Source: Rubidibacter lacunae KORDI 51-2 (GTDB lineage: Bacteria; Cyanobacteriota; Cyanobacteriia; Cyanobacteriales; Rubidibacteraceae). From it: 64,000 nucleotides of DNA. Where the stretch lies: the NCBI RefSeq assembly GCF_000473895.1, contig NZ_ASSJ01000076.1, positions 124,001 through 188,000 on the forward strand, read 5' to 3'. The notes beneath the pieces are model-generated. The model searched no databases. It was not told the origin of the DNA and worked only from the letters and a program-made list of their open reading frames with translations. Both the position numbers and the translations under genes were made by a program. Every line of letters begins with the position of its first letter. Positions within the stretch are counted from its first letter, which is position 1. Of this stretch, positions 14,814 to 53,565 are shown in pieces.

Positions 14814-16508
14814 ATGCCCATTATGGCTGCTGTATTGCTCAACAATCGATATCAAGTCCTGCGCGAACTCGGTCGTGGAGGTTTCGGGCGGACCTACCTT
14901 GCGATCGATACGCACATGCCCTCCGGGCAGCAATGCGCTATCAAGCAGCTCAAGCCTTTGCTGACCGACCCCGATCGATACGACCTTGCTTGCGAACGGT
15001 TCCAACGTGAAGCCGCCGTGCTCGAAGCCCTCGGCCGCGACAGCGAATGTATTCCCTGCCTATACGCGTATTTTGCTGAAGCTAATACGTTTTATTTGGT
15101 GCAAGAGTGGATAGACGGACCGACGCTGACACAGGCCGTTTCCGATAGCGGCTGCCTGTCACCCGGCGAGGTCCGCGTTTTGCTGGAGGACCTGTTGGGA
15201 TTATTAGATTTCGTTCACCAGCGCCGCATCATTCACCGCGATATTAAGCCAGACAACGTCATCCTACGTGCCTCCGACGGCAAACCCGTTTTGATCGACT
15301 TCGGAATTGTTAAAGAAGCGGTCGATACGCTTTTAGATCTCGATGGGAGCGGCACGAGATCGCTGTCAATCGGTACACCGGGCTATATGGCGCCGGAGCA
15401 GGCAGCAGGGCGGCCGGTATACTCCAGCGACCTATACAGCCTCGGCTTGACTGCCGTATACGCCCTCAGCGATCGCTCTCCTCAGGAGTTAGAAACCGAT
15501 CCGCGGACGGGCGAAATTGCCTGGCGCCAGGTATTACCAGACCTACACTCGTCGCTGGCTGGCGCCCTCGATCGCTGCTTGCGGTTTCACCCGCGCGACC
15601 GATTTTCGACAGCAGCGGAGATGCTGGTATCCTTGCGCGGCGGCCCGGTTCCCATCCGCGCGACAGTCCCCACCAGTGCGACCGCTCTCAGCGCACCCGC
15701 GACTGCTGCTGCACCGCCGACCGCGACGGCAATTACCGATCCGACAGTCGCAACGCAGGTCTTGCCGCGACCGGAACCCCCACCACCTCGCGATCGCTTT
15801 TGGCTGGTGACCGGTTTCCTAGCATCGGGCGTCGTCGCTGCCGGGTTAATTGCCGGGTACGGACTGGTGCGCTTTAGCGACGCGCTATCACAACCTACGG
15901 TAAACCGACGGCTGGAAGGCCAGCGGTCAGCAAGTGTCGCCCCCTTCGAGCTACTCCCCGATTCGATTGCTGCTAGCAAACCGGAAGACACGACCGAGGC
16001 GGAGTCGGACACCGCGATCGCGCCCGAGCCCGAGCCCGAGCCCGAGCCCGAAGCAACCCTGCCGCGCCAGCCACCAACCGTTATCGTTCCAACCGAGCCA
16101 ACACCGTCCCCACCAGCAGTACGCTGGTTTGCAGAAGGCACCCCCGAACGCGAAATTCGCGAGGCATTGGGCGAGCCAGCTGCCACGACACCGGGGAGTT
16201 TATTGGGCACGGACGTGGTTCTCTACCGCGATATTGCCACCAAGGCCGACTTGGGTTATGTGGTTGATAGTTCCTCGCGGCGCTTGCGCCAAACCAACGT
16301 ACACTTCGCTCCCAACGATAGTCTTGAGGGGATCCAAGCGGCTTTGACCGAGCTCCTCGGCGGTTCTCTGCCACCAGCCACTGCCAATGCCCTGCGCCAG
16401 GTTTATGCAGGCGAAACCGACCGCCGGCAGTTCGCAAGCAGCAGAGTTGCCGGGATGGTCCACCGCAATCGCGGTCGACTGGCGGTTAGCTTTTGGGATG
16501 CCAACTAA
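14814..16508 (+). CDS. serine/threonine protein kinase, membrane-anchored
   Basis: A 564-residue Hanks-type kinase. The N-terminal kinase domain (about 13-275) has the glycine loop GRGGFGRTYLA, ATP lysine in CAIKQLK, catalytic HRDIKPDN, DFG in LIDFGIVKEA, and GTPGYMAPEQ. A Pro/Thr/Ala linker precedes one membrane helix (about 330-350). A periplasmic part follows, with a Glu-Pro repeat (EPEPEPEPE, about 403-411) and a C-terminal domain starting VRWFAEGTPEREIREALG. A start at 14823 (MAAVLLNNRYQ) is equally likely. It ends 11 bp before the Sua5-type gene. Substrates are unknown. Confidence 0.93.
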   Translation: MPIMAAVLLNNRYQVLRELGRGGFGRTYLAIDTHMPSGQQCAIKQLKPLLTDPDRYDLACERFQREAAVLEALGRDSECIPCLYAYFAEANTFYLVQEWIDGPTLTQAVSDSGCLSPGEVRVLLEDLLGLLDFVHQRRIIHRDIKPDNVILRASDGKPVLIDFGIVKEAVDTLLDLDGSGTRSLSIGTPGYMAPEQAAGRPVYSSDLYSLGLTAVYALSDRSPQELETDPRTGEIAWRQVLPDLHSSLAGALDRCLRFHPRDRFSTAAEMLVSLRGGPVPIRATVPTSATALSAPATAAAPPTATAITDPTVATQVLPRPEPPPPRDRFWLVTGFLASGVVAAGLIAGYGLVRFSDALSQPTVNRRLEGQRSASVAPFELLPDSIAASKPEDTTEAESDTAIAPEPEPEPEPEATLPRQPPTVIVPTEPTPSPPAVRWFAEGTPEREIREALGEPAATTPGSLLGTDVVLYRDIATKADLGYVVDSSSRRLRQTNVHFAPNDSLEGIQAALTELLGGSLPPATANALRQVYAGETDRRQFASSRVAGMVHRNRGRLAVSFWDAN

Positions 16509-40840: not shown

Positions 40841-41557
40841 ATGATGCTGCGACGAGTTTGGGCGCTGGTTTTGGCGGGCTGCATGTTGCTCTTGTCGGGC
40901 TGCGTGCAGTACGACGCGGGCATTCGCTTCGAGGGATTGCATCGCGGCGCGATCGTCCAACGCGTGCAGCTCGGCGATCGCCTATCGAGCTTTAGCAAGT
41001 CGAGCGTGCGGGAATGGCTGCGGAGTATCGAGCGGCGGGCCCAGCAGCTCGGTGGGAGAGTGGAACGGGTGTCGCCGCTGGAATTAGCGGTCGAGATTCC
41101 GTTCGGAAGCGGTCCGGAACTGGCACAAAAGTTTAACGCCTTCTTCCATCCCGACGCACCGGCAAGTAGCGACTTGGTGGCGTTCGATGCCAGCTTGGAC
41201 GTGCGGCAGACCAACTTACTATTGGTGCAGCGGACGTACCTGAAGCTGGCACTGGACTTGCGGGCATTGGCACTGCTGTCGCCGGAGGCAGCAGAAGTTG
41301 TCGATGCGGGGTCGCTGGTCGATCTGGAGTTCCACCTCGACGTGCCTGGCTCGGTCCGTAAGGCGTCTCCAGGTGCACGGCGCGAAGGTTCGCAACTCGT
41401 GTGGACATTACAACCCGGTACGATCGCTTCCTTGGAGGCAGCATTTTGGTCGGTGGAACCCCTGGGTTGGGGCGCGATCGCGATTGCCCTTTTCGTCGTC
41501 GGCGGGTTTTATCTCAAGTACCATCATTTGCCTTGGTCGGCACCGCGATCGTCTTAA
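40841..41557 (+). CDS. DUF3153 family lipoprotein
   Basis: A 238-residue conserved cyanobacterial protein. A lipoprotein signal ends at LLLSGC (C21 is the likely lipidated residue). The body has a YDAGIRFEGLHRGAIVQ start and FNAFFHPD, and a C-terminal membrane helix (about 207-227, WGAIAIALFVVGGFYLKY) anchors it. The function is unknown. It lies 25 bp after the cysteine desulfurase gene and is probably co-transcribed. Confidence 0.85.
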   Translation: MMLRRVWALVLAGCMLLLSGCVQYDAGIRFEGLHRGAIVQRVQLGDRLSSFSKSSVREWLRSIERRAQQLGGRVERVSPLELAVEIPFGSGPELAQKFNAFFHPDAPASSDLVAFDASLDVRQTNLLLVQRTYLKLALDLRALALLSPEAAEVVDAGSLVDLEFHLDVPGSVRKASPGARREGSQLVWTLQPGTIASLEAAFWSVEPLGWGAIAIALFVVGGFYLKYHHLPWSAPRSS

Positions 41558-41663
41558 TCCGAGACGCGTGCGCGGTGGGTCAGATCGCCGCGAACGTTTT
41601 TTTGCCCGCCCGCCTGCGCGACCTGCAGTACAGTTGGGGCAGAACCAGACGGAGGGTACCTCG

Positions 41664-42302
41664 ATGAGTCTGAGACTGTACCTGCTGCGGCACGGCGAAA
41701 CTACCTACAGCCAGAAAGGCGGCTTCTGTGGCATCCTCGATCCCGACCTCACGTCCGAAGGGGCCACCATGGCCGAGGCGTTTGCAGCGGCTTATCGCAA
41801 TCTGGATTGGAAAGCCATCTACGTCAGCCCGATGCGCCGCACGATCGCAACCGCCAAGCCCATATGCGAGGCCGCTGGTTTGCAGATGCAGCTCCGCGAC
41901 GGACTCAAGGAGCTAAATTATGGCGAGTGGGAGGACCAAACCCACGAAGCCGTCGAGCGGCGCTTCAATGCCGACTACGTGCGCTGGCTGACTGAACCGG
42001 CTTGGAACCCACCAACTGGCGGCGAGACGGCAACGCAGGTCTCCAGTCGCGCGATGCCCATCATTGCCGAAATTGAAGAGAATTATGCTGACGGCAACGT
42101 GCTCGTGGTGTCCCACAAAGCGACGATACGGATCGTTTTGTGTTCGCTACTCGGCATCGACCTCGGGCGCTATCGCGATCGCATTGCCGCTCTGACGACG
42201 TCGGTGTCGATTGTCAAGTTCGACGTTCACGGACCGCTGCTGGAGGTCCTCGGCGATCGTACCCACATCCCCGAACACATCCGCAACCGACCGGGCACCT
42301 GA
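41664..42302 (+). CDS. histidine phosphatase superfamily protein
   Basis: A 212-residue phosphoglycerate-mutase-like enzyme. The catalytic RHG is in LYLLRHGETTYS. DLTSEGATMAEAFAAAY, SPMRRTIATAKP, LKELNYGEWED and the second histidine in VVSHKATIRIVL complete the site. ATG 41664 has GGAGG upstream (41651). Substrate is not predictable; alpha-ribazole, sugar or phosphoglycerate phosphatase roles all occur in this family. Confidence 0.9.
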   Translation: MSLRLYLLRHGETTYSQKGGFCGILDPDLTSEGATMAEAFAAAYRNLDWKAIYVSPMRRTIATAKPICEAAGLQMQLRDGLKELNYGEWEDQTHEAVERRFNADYVRWLTEPAWNPPTGGETATQVSSRAMPIIAEIEENYADGNVLVVSHKATIRIVLCSLLGIDLGRYRDRIAALTTSVSIVKFDVHGPLLEVLGDRTHIPEHIRNRPGT

Positions 42303-45096: not shown

Positions 45097-46745
45097 CGAT
45101 CGGTCTCTGTGCCGTTAAGAGCTTTAGGTACTGCGTTCGAGCAGTTGGGAAGAAAGCTAGTCTTTCTTTAGAACCGCTGCTGGCTGGAATCTTTAGAGCC
45201 GCTGCTGGCTGGAATGAGGGCACGTTAGCAGCGTTGCTTGCGGCTAAGAGATTGTTGAGAGCGGCTTGATGAGCGTCACGACTTATGTAGCTGGTATCGA
45301 GAGCATTGGTATGAGCCCGCTTCATGGTCCCTGGTTTGCGAGCTGACTGGAGGGCTCTGAAACCTCCCGCCAGAGGCGCATAGCGATTTAGCAGCAAATT
45401 GCTTACGTCGCGTCTGAAATCAGAGTGGCAATGTAAACAAGGCGGCAATAGTGGACTTTACAGGCGCTCTGCTCACACTTCGGCACACCCGATCGTCTTA
45501 GAGCAAGATTTGGGGGAACCAATGATTAAGCAGCTTGTAGAGCGCAATCGCGCCGCTGACGAGCGATGTCCGCATGCCGGCGACACATGGCAGCGAATCG
45601 AGTGGGTTGTAGGCTTCTGCGAGGGCGCGCGCGGTGACAATGCCCGGGAGGGTTCGACAACGGAGTACTACGAGGGGTTTCTGAGTGGGCTGCGCTGGAT
45701 CGGGAAACGTAAGTACGACAGAGCTCGAGATGGCAAGATCTCTACTGGAAGGGGCTTTGCGGGATCGCAATGCGATTGCTTGTTCTCAATCGTTAGCATT
45801 TGTTGCGAAGAGCGGTCGGTATTCTCAGTTACAGAGCTTACTGCCACAAAACTACGGCTACTCTGATATTCGCTCAACTTCTAGCAAAGGTTACAGCAGT
45901 CAGTTCCATCAAGCTCACATGAGAAGAAATATAATGCCACCACTCGCCACAGTGGGCTACGCGTTGATTGTGCTGCTGCACAGGGATGCGATCGCTTGGG
46001 TGAACGCGCGTTCGAATCCTTCATTGGTCTGTTGGGGTAATTGCTAAACTACTGCACGAAACCGCCCACCAAAACGGCACCTTCTGGGGGCAAATATGCC
46101 CAGCTTTTACCGTCTGAGAGATGGCGATCGCGCGCGCGACTTTGTCCTCATTACGCTCCAACTTCCTCAGCTAAACCGGCAAACTCGCACTGCGTTGCAG
46201 CTTCTGAACCAGCGACTTCCCGCTTACTTTGTCTTCGGCTAATGGACTTTGGAAAAAGCAGCTCAATGGCGAGAGAAAAGATCGGATTCGAGTATGAATT
46301 TATTGCCAACTCGGATGGATTGAAATCAAAAACTAGGGCAGGCGTTGGCTGTAGACCTGATAGTCCGCAATCAACAAGATTGGACCGATAGTGCTGGAAG
46401 AGGGCAATCGCTCCTCAAGAGGCATGACCCTTAATTGGCAGGGGATCTCGGTAGTTCTGAGTCAGACCAAAATGGTTTGAAAGCTCGGATCTAATCAGCG
46501 GACAGCCAGGGCGAGCATAGCCAAAATAAAGCGCTTTTAAATGACTTTGACCGGACTGGAGTCGACTATTTTCAGATTTGATGAAGGTTTCAACGATCGC
46601 AGGTTGCAGAAGTAGCTTTAAAGTCTCAATGCCCTACAAAACGTCGTACTCTTCATAGAACGAAATAGCCTTGGTTTGTTCCCTCCGCAGATGACAGTCT
46701 CGTTGCGAGCACTAGTTGCCGACTTCAACCACAATTGCGTTTAAC
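45097..46745. other. long gene-poor, probably decayed region
   Basis: About 1.65 kb with no confident gene. It holds overlapping short frames, a 25-bp tandem repeat (45166-45215), and a 48-codon rightward frame at 46096-46242 whose product ends QLLNQRLPAYFVFG but matches nothing I know. Frames near 45525-45870 and 46266-46391 give protein-like pieces that break off, consistent with pseudogenes. Confidence 0.45.
45166..45215. repeat. 25-bp tandem repeat, two copies
   Basis: Two adjacent 25-base units differing at one position (CTTTAGAACC or CTTTAGAGCC followed by GCTGCTGGCTGGAAT). They lie 70 bp after the HAMP kinase gene. No function is evident. Confidence 0.85.
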
Positions 46746-52635: not shown

Positions 52636-53565
52636 ATGAGTTTTATCGCGAAAATCATGCAACAAGTCAAACTTTGGCTCGGTGTTGGTAGTTACGTGTT
52701 CGTAAGCGCTGGGGCCGTGTCGCCAGCGATCGCTCACGATGCCGTTCCCGAGCAGTTTTCCCGCTCGGAAATCTCCGAACTCGCCCAAGGCGGTGAAGGA
52801 GCTGAAGGGGGTGAAGGAGCTGAAGGCGGTGAGGGTGGCGAAGGTTTCAAGCCTTATAATCCCTTCGGCAGCGGAGGGGAAGGTGGCGAAGGCGGTGAGG
52901 GTGGTGAAGGCGGTGAAGGCGGTGAGGGTGGTGAAGGCGGTGAAGGCGGTGAAGGCGGTGAAGGCGGTGAGGGTGGTGAAGGCGGTGAGGGTGGTGAAGG
53001 TGCTGCCTCAAGCTTTCAAAACCTTGTCAGTGACACTGTATTAGTCACTGCACTGCGTCAAGGCGGACACATCATCTTCTTCCGGCACGCCCAAACCGAG
53101 AAGGACTACGCCGACCAAGTGAGCGCCGACCCAAATGATTGCTCGACGCAGCGCACCCTTAGCGAAGCTGGTTGGCAAGATGCAAAGGAGATTGGTGAGG
53201 AATTTGAAGACCTGAACATTCCCATCGGCGAGGTCTATTCCAGCCAGTATTGCCGTGCTTGGCAAACTGCAGACCTAGCATTCGACTCCTATGAAAAAGT
53301 TTCCGGGCTGAACTTCGCTCCAGCAGAGGAGTACACCGAGGCTCAGGTCGCGCAGATGCGAAGAGGCATCATGCCGCTGCTAACCGCCACCCCAGCAAGA
53401 GGGACGAATACGGTCGTTGTCGGGCACGATGATGTCTTTGAATCCGCAACGGGTATTTACCCCGAACCGCAAGGCGTCGCCTACATTCTGAAGCCCGACG
53501 GTCGCGGCGGCTTCGACATCATGGCCATGCTGCTGCCATCAGACTGGTCGCAACTGCCTCGGTAG
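52636..53565 (+). CDS. secreted histidine phosphatase-like protein with Gly-Gly-Glu repeats
   Basis: A 309-residue protein. A signal peptide (about 1-33, cleavage near SPAIA-HD) is followed by 6 Gly-(Gly/Ala)-Glu triplets (52789-52842), a short spacer, and 14 uninterrupted Gly-Gly-Glu triplets (52873-52998). The rest is a histidine phosphatase domain: IIFFRHAQTEKDY with the catalytic Arg-His, TLSEAGWQDAKEIGEEF, VYSSQYCRAWQTA, and the second histidine in VVVGHDD. It probably acts in the periplasm or outside. The acidic repeat may bind metal ions or act as a spacer. Confidence 0.85.
   Translation: MSFIAKIMQQVKLWLGVGSYVFVSAGAVSPAIAHDAVPEQFSRSEISELAQGGEGAEGGEGAEGGEGGEGFKPYNPFGSGGEGGEGGEGGEGGEGGEGGEGGEGGEGGEGGEGGEGGEGGEGAASSFQNLVSDTVLVTALRQGGHIIFFRHAQTEKDYADQVSADPNDCSTQRTLSEAGWQDAKEIGEEFEDLNIPIGEVYSSQYCRAWQTADLAFDSYEKVSGLNFAPAEEYTEAQVAQMRRGIMPLLTATPARGTNTVVVGHDDVFESATGIYPEPQGVAYILKPDGRGGFDIMAMLLPSDWSQLPR
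52789..52998 (+). repeat. 9-bp coding minisatellite (Gly-Gly-Glu)
   Basis: Two blocks of the nonamer GGNGGNGAR inside the phosphatase gene: 6 units at 52789-52842 (two with Ala instead of Gly) and 14 at 52873-52998. Third-position changes keep the protein sequence constant while the DNA varies, which suggests selection on the peptide. Confidence 0.95.

Follow-up and report, generated by a model that had tools for sequence, protein, structure and literature searches.

Collagen-like Gly-X-Y repeats are paired with prolyl and lysyl hydroxylases, and the PKHD enzymes take their name from hydroxylation of proline and lysine. Among the PKHD-type Fe(II)/2-oxoglutarate dioxygenases, the PiuC/YbiX family (NF003974) is widespread, and we know of no substrate assigned to it. 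A published report places the piuC gene of Pseudomonas next to the gene of a siderophore receptor (PMC11878004). A different kind of precedent is given by the GlyGly-CTERM/rhombosortase (PMC3237569) and PEP-CTERM/exosortase (PMC1569441) systems in which a short tag is carried by unrelated exported proteins, is co-distributed with one enzyme and is often encoded next to it. The Gly-Glu repeat described here likewise occurs on unrelated exported proteins and is co-distributed with, and often encoded beside, a single type of enzyme, a PiuC/YbiX-like PKHD dioxygenase.

The starting point is an open reading frame of 309 codons at positions 52636-53565 on the + strand of the window, by which we mean the whole stretch of 64,000 nucleotides that was analysed (GC content 57.7%). 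Its features are as follows.

52657..53565, + strand: gene of a GGE-tagged, putatively secreted histidine phosphatase; the reading frame opens at 52636, the likely start is the ATG at 52657
52657..52734, + strand: signal-like leader MQQVKLWLGVGSYVFVSAGAVSPAIA, recognised by eye and in the leader alignment
52789..52842, + strand: first repeat array, six units (4 GGE and 2 GAE), residues 52-69
52843..52872, + strand: linker GFKPYNPFGS, ten residues, with a counterpart GF(T/Q)PYDPY in the GGE-bearing helical proteins of the family
52873..52998, + strand: main repeat array, 14 perfect GGE units, residues 80-121
53020..53562, + strand: histidine phosphatase branch-1 domain, according to Pfam, NCBIfam and the predicted model
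53083..53088, + strand: presumed catalytic Arg-His, R22-H23 of the domain, invariant in 36/36 sequences
53254..53256, + strand: presumed catalytic-site Arg, R79 of the domain, invariant in 36/36 sequences
53425..53427, + strand: presumed second catalytic His, H136 of the domain (VGHDD), invariant in 36/36 sequences

The N-termini of the relatives read MNQKIKLWVG or MSQKIKLWVG. Since the leader that opens at the internal ATG 52657 (MQQVKLWLGVG) resembles these better than the one from ATG 52636, translation probably starts at 52657. Judged by eye, the leader suggests that the phosphatase is secreted. With repeats masked, it aligns to the leaders of GGE-bearing helical proteins from three genomes of the same family with scores of 81-95 (shuffle maximum 39), and the domains behind these similar leaders, phosphatase and helical, are unrelated. 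The probable explanation is that leaders, together with their repeats, have moved from one gene to another.

The predicted phosphatase domain is intact and ordinary; the repeat is not. The domain matches Pfam PF00300 (E = 2.2e-7, above cut-off) and NCBIfam NF004841 (PRK06193.1-1; 284.9 bits, cut-off 178), and its predicted model (pLDDT 94.7) has SixA (1ujb) as the best Foldseek match, with a TM-score of 0.62 by query length. Domain, catalytic residues and fold are thus common to the window protein and the NF004841/SixA group. Against the model of the periplasmic heptose phosphatase PmrG (NF052369) the domain scores 29 bits, below the cut-off of 170. According to record titles, relatives occur in cyanobacteria, proteobacteria and actinobacteria but, unlike the window protein, none of the nine tested outside cyanobacteria (9/9) has a GGE leader. 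Relatives in Corynebacterium and in two actinobacterial drafts (L134, L145, L146) carry acidic lipoprotein-like leaders without GGE, and gene transfer is possible for these three. A further relative lies on a contig labelled Candidatus Gracilibacteria (L096); as it groups inside the cyanobacteria on the phosphatase tree, the label or the binning of this draft is doubtful. The window itself holds a second histidine-phosphatase-like reading frame at 41298-42302 (LYLLRHGETTY).

In the preliminary description, GGE triplets and Ala variants of them separated a signal peptide from a histidine phosphatase domain. We recover this order, with 14 GGE units in one array, 4 GGE and 2 GAE in the other, and an intact domain. 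It had also stated that the DNA units differ silently while the peptide stays constant. Indeed, the 14 GGE units comprise five DNA versions, and every difference lies at a third codon position and is silent. Because 20 of the 27 single-base changes possible per unit would alter the amino acid, the repeat peptide looks constrained, with the proviso that duplicated blocks in the array make the independent events fewer than the units. TRF detects this same array, with its 9-bp unit, at 52879-53000. A 27-base pattern for three GGE units matched the 4.15-Mb genome at this array alone, with 12 overlapping matches on one strand, none on the other and none for the reversed control; the repeat is far beyond chance. 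The composition is not that of collagen-like, Pro-rich Gly-X-Y triplets, all 14 units being GGE and free of Pro. Two other repeats were seen in the window, five perfect GCCCGA copies at 16022-16051 that encode a Glu-Pro run in a Ser/Thr-kinase-like gene, and, at 45165-45215, immediately past a histidine-kinase-like gene, a 25-bp unit repeated twice at 96%.

Among the 18 phosphatase orthologues of the order the number of GGE units ranges from 0 to 18, and across 69 named loci, where part of the leaders are truncated, from 0 to 14. The suggestion that the array could change its length is plausible on these figures, which compare orthologues rather than strains. As evidence against its own reading, the preliminary description had named relatives that lose the repeat with no consequence for the gene, and this is found in part: three of the 18 orthologues persist without GGE. 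All three sit in genomes without the PKHD dioxygenase, which suggests that the partner was lost and not that the repeat has no meaning. Overall, the first reading is partly supported. It missed that the repeat is a module found on proteins of unrelated kinds and linked to a single family of oxygenases.

The three-GGE DNA pattern matched 42 of 148 genomes of the order, and in-frame reading found leader-bearing or long repeat proteins in 30 of these. This set of tagged genomes was accepted by eye; the matches read in the other 12 lay outside any leader-bearing or long repeat ORF, and those of G016, G100 and G145 were read in part. In line with a search suggested in the preliminary description, the repeat also precedes other secreted domains in cyanobacteria. 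Phosphatases, proteins with a helical domain of about 200 amino acids, small lipoproteins ending in the repeat, and one 693-aa protein with GEA, GES and GEG triplets carry it. The small lipoproteins consist of little beyond leader and repeat and end in GGEGGEG or similar. By eye, the tag stands either behind the leader or at the protein end, without a following transmembrane segment. The peptide is found again, encoded by different DNA sequences, in unrelated genes from many families, and its composition changes with lineage, the third residue giving mostly GEG, GES, GEA or GED (318 of 354 triplets) while G-E is kept every third residue. We read the GGE stretch as a variant of a portable G-E-x triplet tag, a module that unrelated exported proteins share together with a recurring signal-like leader.

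The helical secreted domain occurs in 73 of the 148 genomes, and a small multicopper oxidase adjoins it in many of the loci read. Leaders were counted for 70 of the 73 genomes; of the other three, two had only fragmentary proteins and in one no ORF could be read. For three domains tested (A1 family, e.g., L087:5629-6543) no Pfam or NCBIfam model scored above cut-off. A GHPVEE motif suggested imelysin (PF09375) as a candidate, which the searches did not support: the Pfam imelysin model gave no match, hhalign with six imelysin sequences gave a probability of 7%, and the best matches of a PDB profile search were designed helical proteins, none of them imelysin-like. Many helical proteins without GGE (L210, L212 and similar) carry a different N-terminal segment, ININTAILSELDKLEAKLG..., which appears ComEA-like by eye. 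The 693-aa protein (L275:5852-7930, genome G013) has long GEA/GES/GEG repeats and RTX-like segments and adjoins a PKHD gene; its matches to bacterial collagen-like adhesin models remained below cut-off.

The neighbourhoods of tagged genes recurrently hold a PiuC/YbiX-like PKHD dioxygenase, and some also hold a multicopper oxidase, a bacterioferritin or iron-uptake porins. We collected 60 full-length PKHD genes (E < 1e-70, weaker matches being left out) from 57 of the 148 genomes, together with flanks of at most 5 kb. A leader-bearing or long G-E repeat ORF lies within 1.5 kb of 51 of the 60 genes, compared with 5 of 146 equally long control stretches taken from the named loci. One near-variant of the GExGE motif was accepted in this count, and the 51 neighbours were read singly; they comprise 13 helical proteins, five phosphatases, 32 small proteins (60-125 aa) with a leader, and the 693-aa protein. 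The five positive control ORFs include no small protein resembling the tagged ones. Within 700 bp, a GExGE ORF was found at 49 of 60 PKHD genes and in 2 of 108 control stretches from the same loci, and (GEx)3 at 36 of 60 and in none of the 108. Nine PKHD genes are without a tagged neighbour; in eight of these cases the genome encodes a tagged protein at another locus, G027 being the exception. The window genome shows this unlinked arrangement, with the PKHD gene at C55:49888-50559 and the tagged phosphatase on C76. In the named genomes a tagged ORF was seen in 13 of 27 PKHD neighbourhoods and none in 14, with flanks of about 1.5 kb or less.

Recognised iron genes stand near a minority of the 60 PKHD genes only: multicopper oxidase at 13, bacterioferritin at four and iron-uptake porin at four. 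In four genomes of the window's family (loci L250, L251, L260, L277) the PKHD gene is divergent beside an ABC substrate-binding gene, with no tagged gene there. These binding proteins look FutA-like, as does the one beside the PKHD gene of the window genome; two of the PKHD-adjoining genes were tested and had NCBIfam matches to PhnS/SfuA only, below cut-off. Upstream of the tagged genes, the best matches to a 19-base Fur consensus could not be separated from AT content, and k-mer enrichment gave no clear Fur motif but mostly words resembling shared ancestry.

The partner enzyme is a member of NF003974 above cut-off, also in the window genome itself (290.8 bits, cut-off 143). The enzyme looks active, since the residues H96, D98, H157 and R167 (HxD...H...R) are kept in at least 59 of the 60 proteins. 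By eye, the PKHD proteins begin without an obvious signal peptide.

Tag and dioxygenase also go together at the level of genomes. PKHD is encoded in 30 of 30 tagged genomes and in 27 of 118 untagged ones (Fisher test, 6.8e-16); with the unfiltered DNA pattern the figures are 33 of 42 and 24 of 106 (4e-10), and permutation of PKHD within families gives p of about 5e-6 over 10 informative families. Of the two controls, multicopper oxidase is present in 19 of 30 tagged and 47 of 118 untagged genomes, and the helical family in 22 of 30 and 49 of 118. The tag follows PKHD far more tightly than either of them. Helical proteins with at least two GGE units are in PKHD genomes in 18 of 18 cases, compared with 13 of 52 for those with fewer, and none of the 39 helical proteins from PKHD-less genomes reaches two GGE units. 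Phosphatases of the order with at least two GGE units belong to a PKHD genome in 14 of 15 cases, those with fewer in none of three; these counts cover 18 of 30 genomes, twelve weak, paralogous or fragmentary matches being left out.

For the named genomes PKHD was searched at 50 of the 69 loci, nine of them non-cyanobacterial, which leaves 41 cyanobacterial genomes. PKHD is encoded in 20 of the 22 with at least two GGE units on the phosphatase leader and in 6 of the 19 with fewer. The two exceptions among the 22 are metagenome drafts (L110, L137) with a tagged phosphatase and no PKHD detected. Where the phosphatase of a named cyanobacterium has no GGE at all, 4 of 15 genomes still encode PKHD, and each has a small G-E tagged protein beside it. 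In the order, the tagged genome G018 shows no more of PKHD than a C-terminal fragment. Genus g57 offers an apparent case of joint loss: tag and PKHD are both present in G087 and G134, and in G119 the phosphatase has no GGE and full-length PKHD is missing. An independent-pairs test on the phosphatase gene tree found only five supported pairs, a mean of 2.2 in the same direction and 1.0 in the opposite one, and was underpowered and not significant. Tag and PKHD are co-distributed and their genes often adjacent, and such co-distribution cannot separate a substrate from a functional neighbour.

In the explanation that we favour, and to which we give about an even chance, the repeat is a portable tag that the PKHD dioxygenase modifies or cooperates with, probably in the handling of iron. 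The chance that the repeat is itself the substrate of this enzyme is roughly even as well; a role of the repeat in iron binding is somewhat less likely than not. Since the PKHD proteins have no obvious signal peptide and keep the HxD...H...R residues, a cytosolic dioxygenase would most naturally act on the pre-protein ahead of export. It would most likely hydroxylate the G-E-x repeat, and the tagged protein would then be exported. Glu is our guess for the oxidised residue; by general chemistry, hydroxylated Glu in such repeats should provide strong ligands for hard metals, and the acidic repeat might then serve iron handling at the cell surface. The iron genes near some loci fit this proposal. 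The GGE arrays hold neither Pro nor Lys, and this counts against the repeat as a PKHD substrate. In its boldest form, exported Gly-Glu tags, hydroxylated by a dedicated PiuC-like dioxygenase (perhaps to hydroxyglutamate), would serve lipoproteins, phosphatases and ferroxidase-linked proteins as siderophore-like iron ligands encoded in genes, and would form a post-translational modification system that has not been described; we regard this as unlikely, if conceivable.

The same loci could be read without any modification: the repeat may be an acidic Fe- or Ca-binding segment on iron-uptake lipoproteins, and PKHD a co-regulated gene of the iron regulon. Multicopper oxidase, bacterioferritin and iron-uptake porin genes near some tagged genes agree with this, as does the ABC substrate-binding gene, presumably FutA-like, next to the PKHD gene of the window genome. 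The PiuC relative in Pseudomonas is moreover an iron-dependent oxygenase whose gene is reported beside that of a siderophore receptor (PMC11878004). Against this reading, PKHD is present in all 30 tagged genomes, multicopper oxidase in 19 and the helical family in 22; multicopper oxidase, the commonest iron gene, is near only 13 of the 60 PKHD genes; and the 39 helical proteins from PKHD-less genomes are without exception short of two GGE units. We hold this explanation to be somewhat unlikely.

The repeat could also be a flexible acidic spacer that holds the enzyme off the membrane or sheath; its length would then drift by slippage, and its link with PKHD would reflect the shared ancestry of certain lineages. 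The range of 0 to 18 GGE among 18 orthologues, the full domain of the GGE-less ones and the non-significant gene-tree contrast agree with this, but the small proteins, nearly all leader and repeat, have nothing to space, the neighbourhood enrichment and the within-family permutation go beyond ancestry alone, and the triplets are largely restricted to GEG, GES, GEA and GED; a spacer is improbable. A functionless, neutral minisatellite would account for tandem nonamers that are able to slip and for an array with repeated blocks of unit variants. It does not sit well with 14 units that differ only silently, nor with a peptide that returns under other DNA spellings in unrelated genes of many families, and we disfavour it as very improbable. 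The tag modified by, or working with, PKHD is the reading that we carry forward.

In the literature searched, no link between PiuC/YbiX enzymes and a secreted G-E repeat was found. The open full-text literature gave no paper recognisable as dealing with this repeat or with PKHD enzymes in cyanobacteria, although an earlier mention is possible, and the strings GGEGGEGGE and GEGGEGGE turned up there in two drug-delivery reviews only. As an almost constant companion of one PKHD branch, the tag would provide a concrete candidate substrate for the PiuC/YbiX enzymes and, if the proposal is true, a pointer to extracellular iron handling in cyanobacteria. With the collagen-like repeats the G-E tag has in common the period of three, Gly at each third residue and, as a candidate here, a hydroxylase partner; unlike them, the GGE arrays are free of Pro and Lys and carry Glu throughout. 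With the LPXTG, PEP-CTERM and GlyGly-CTERM types of system it shares the co-distribution of tag and enzyme, but not the C-terminal motif with transmembrane helix and basic tail. GlyGly-CTERM and PEP-CTERM combine a motif, a transmembrane segment and a basic stretch with a membrane protease, whereas the G-E tag is a soluble repeat, placed after an N-terminal leader or at the C-terminus, and its partner is a soluble oxygenase. If the proposal is true, a second enzyme class, an oxygenase and not a protease, would join the tag systems in which many proteins answer to one enzyme.
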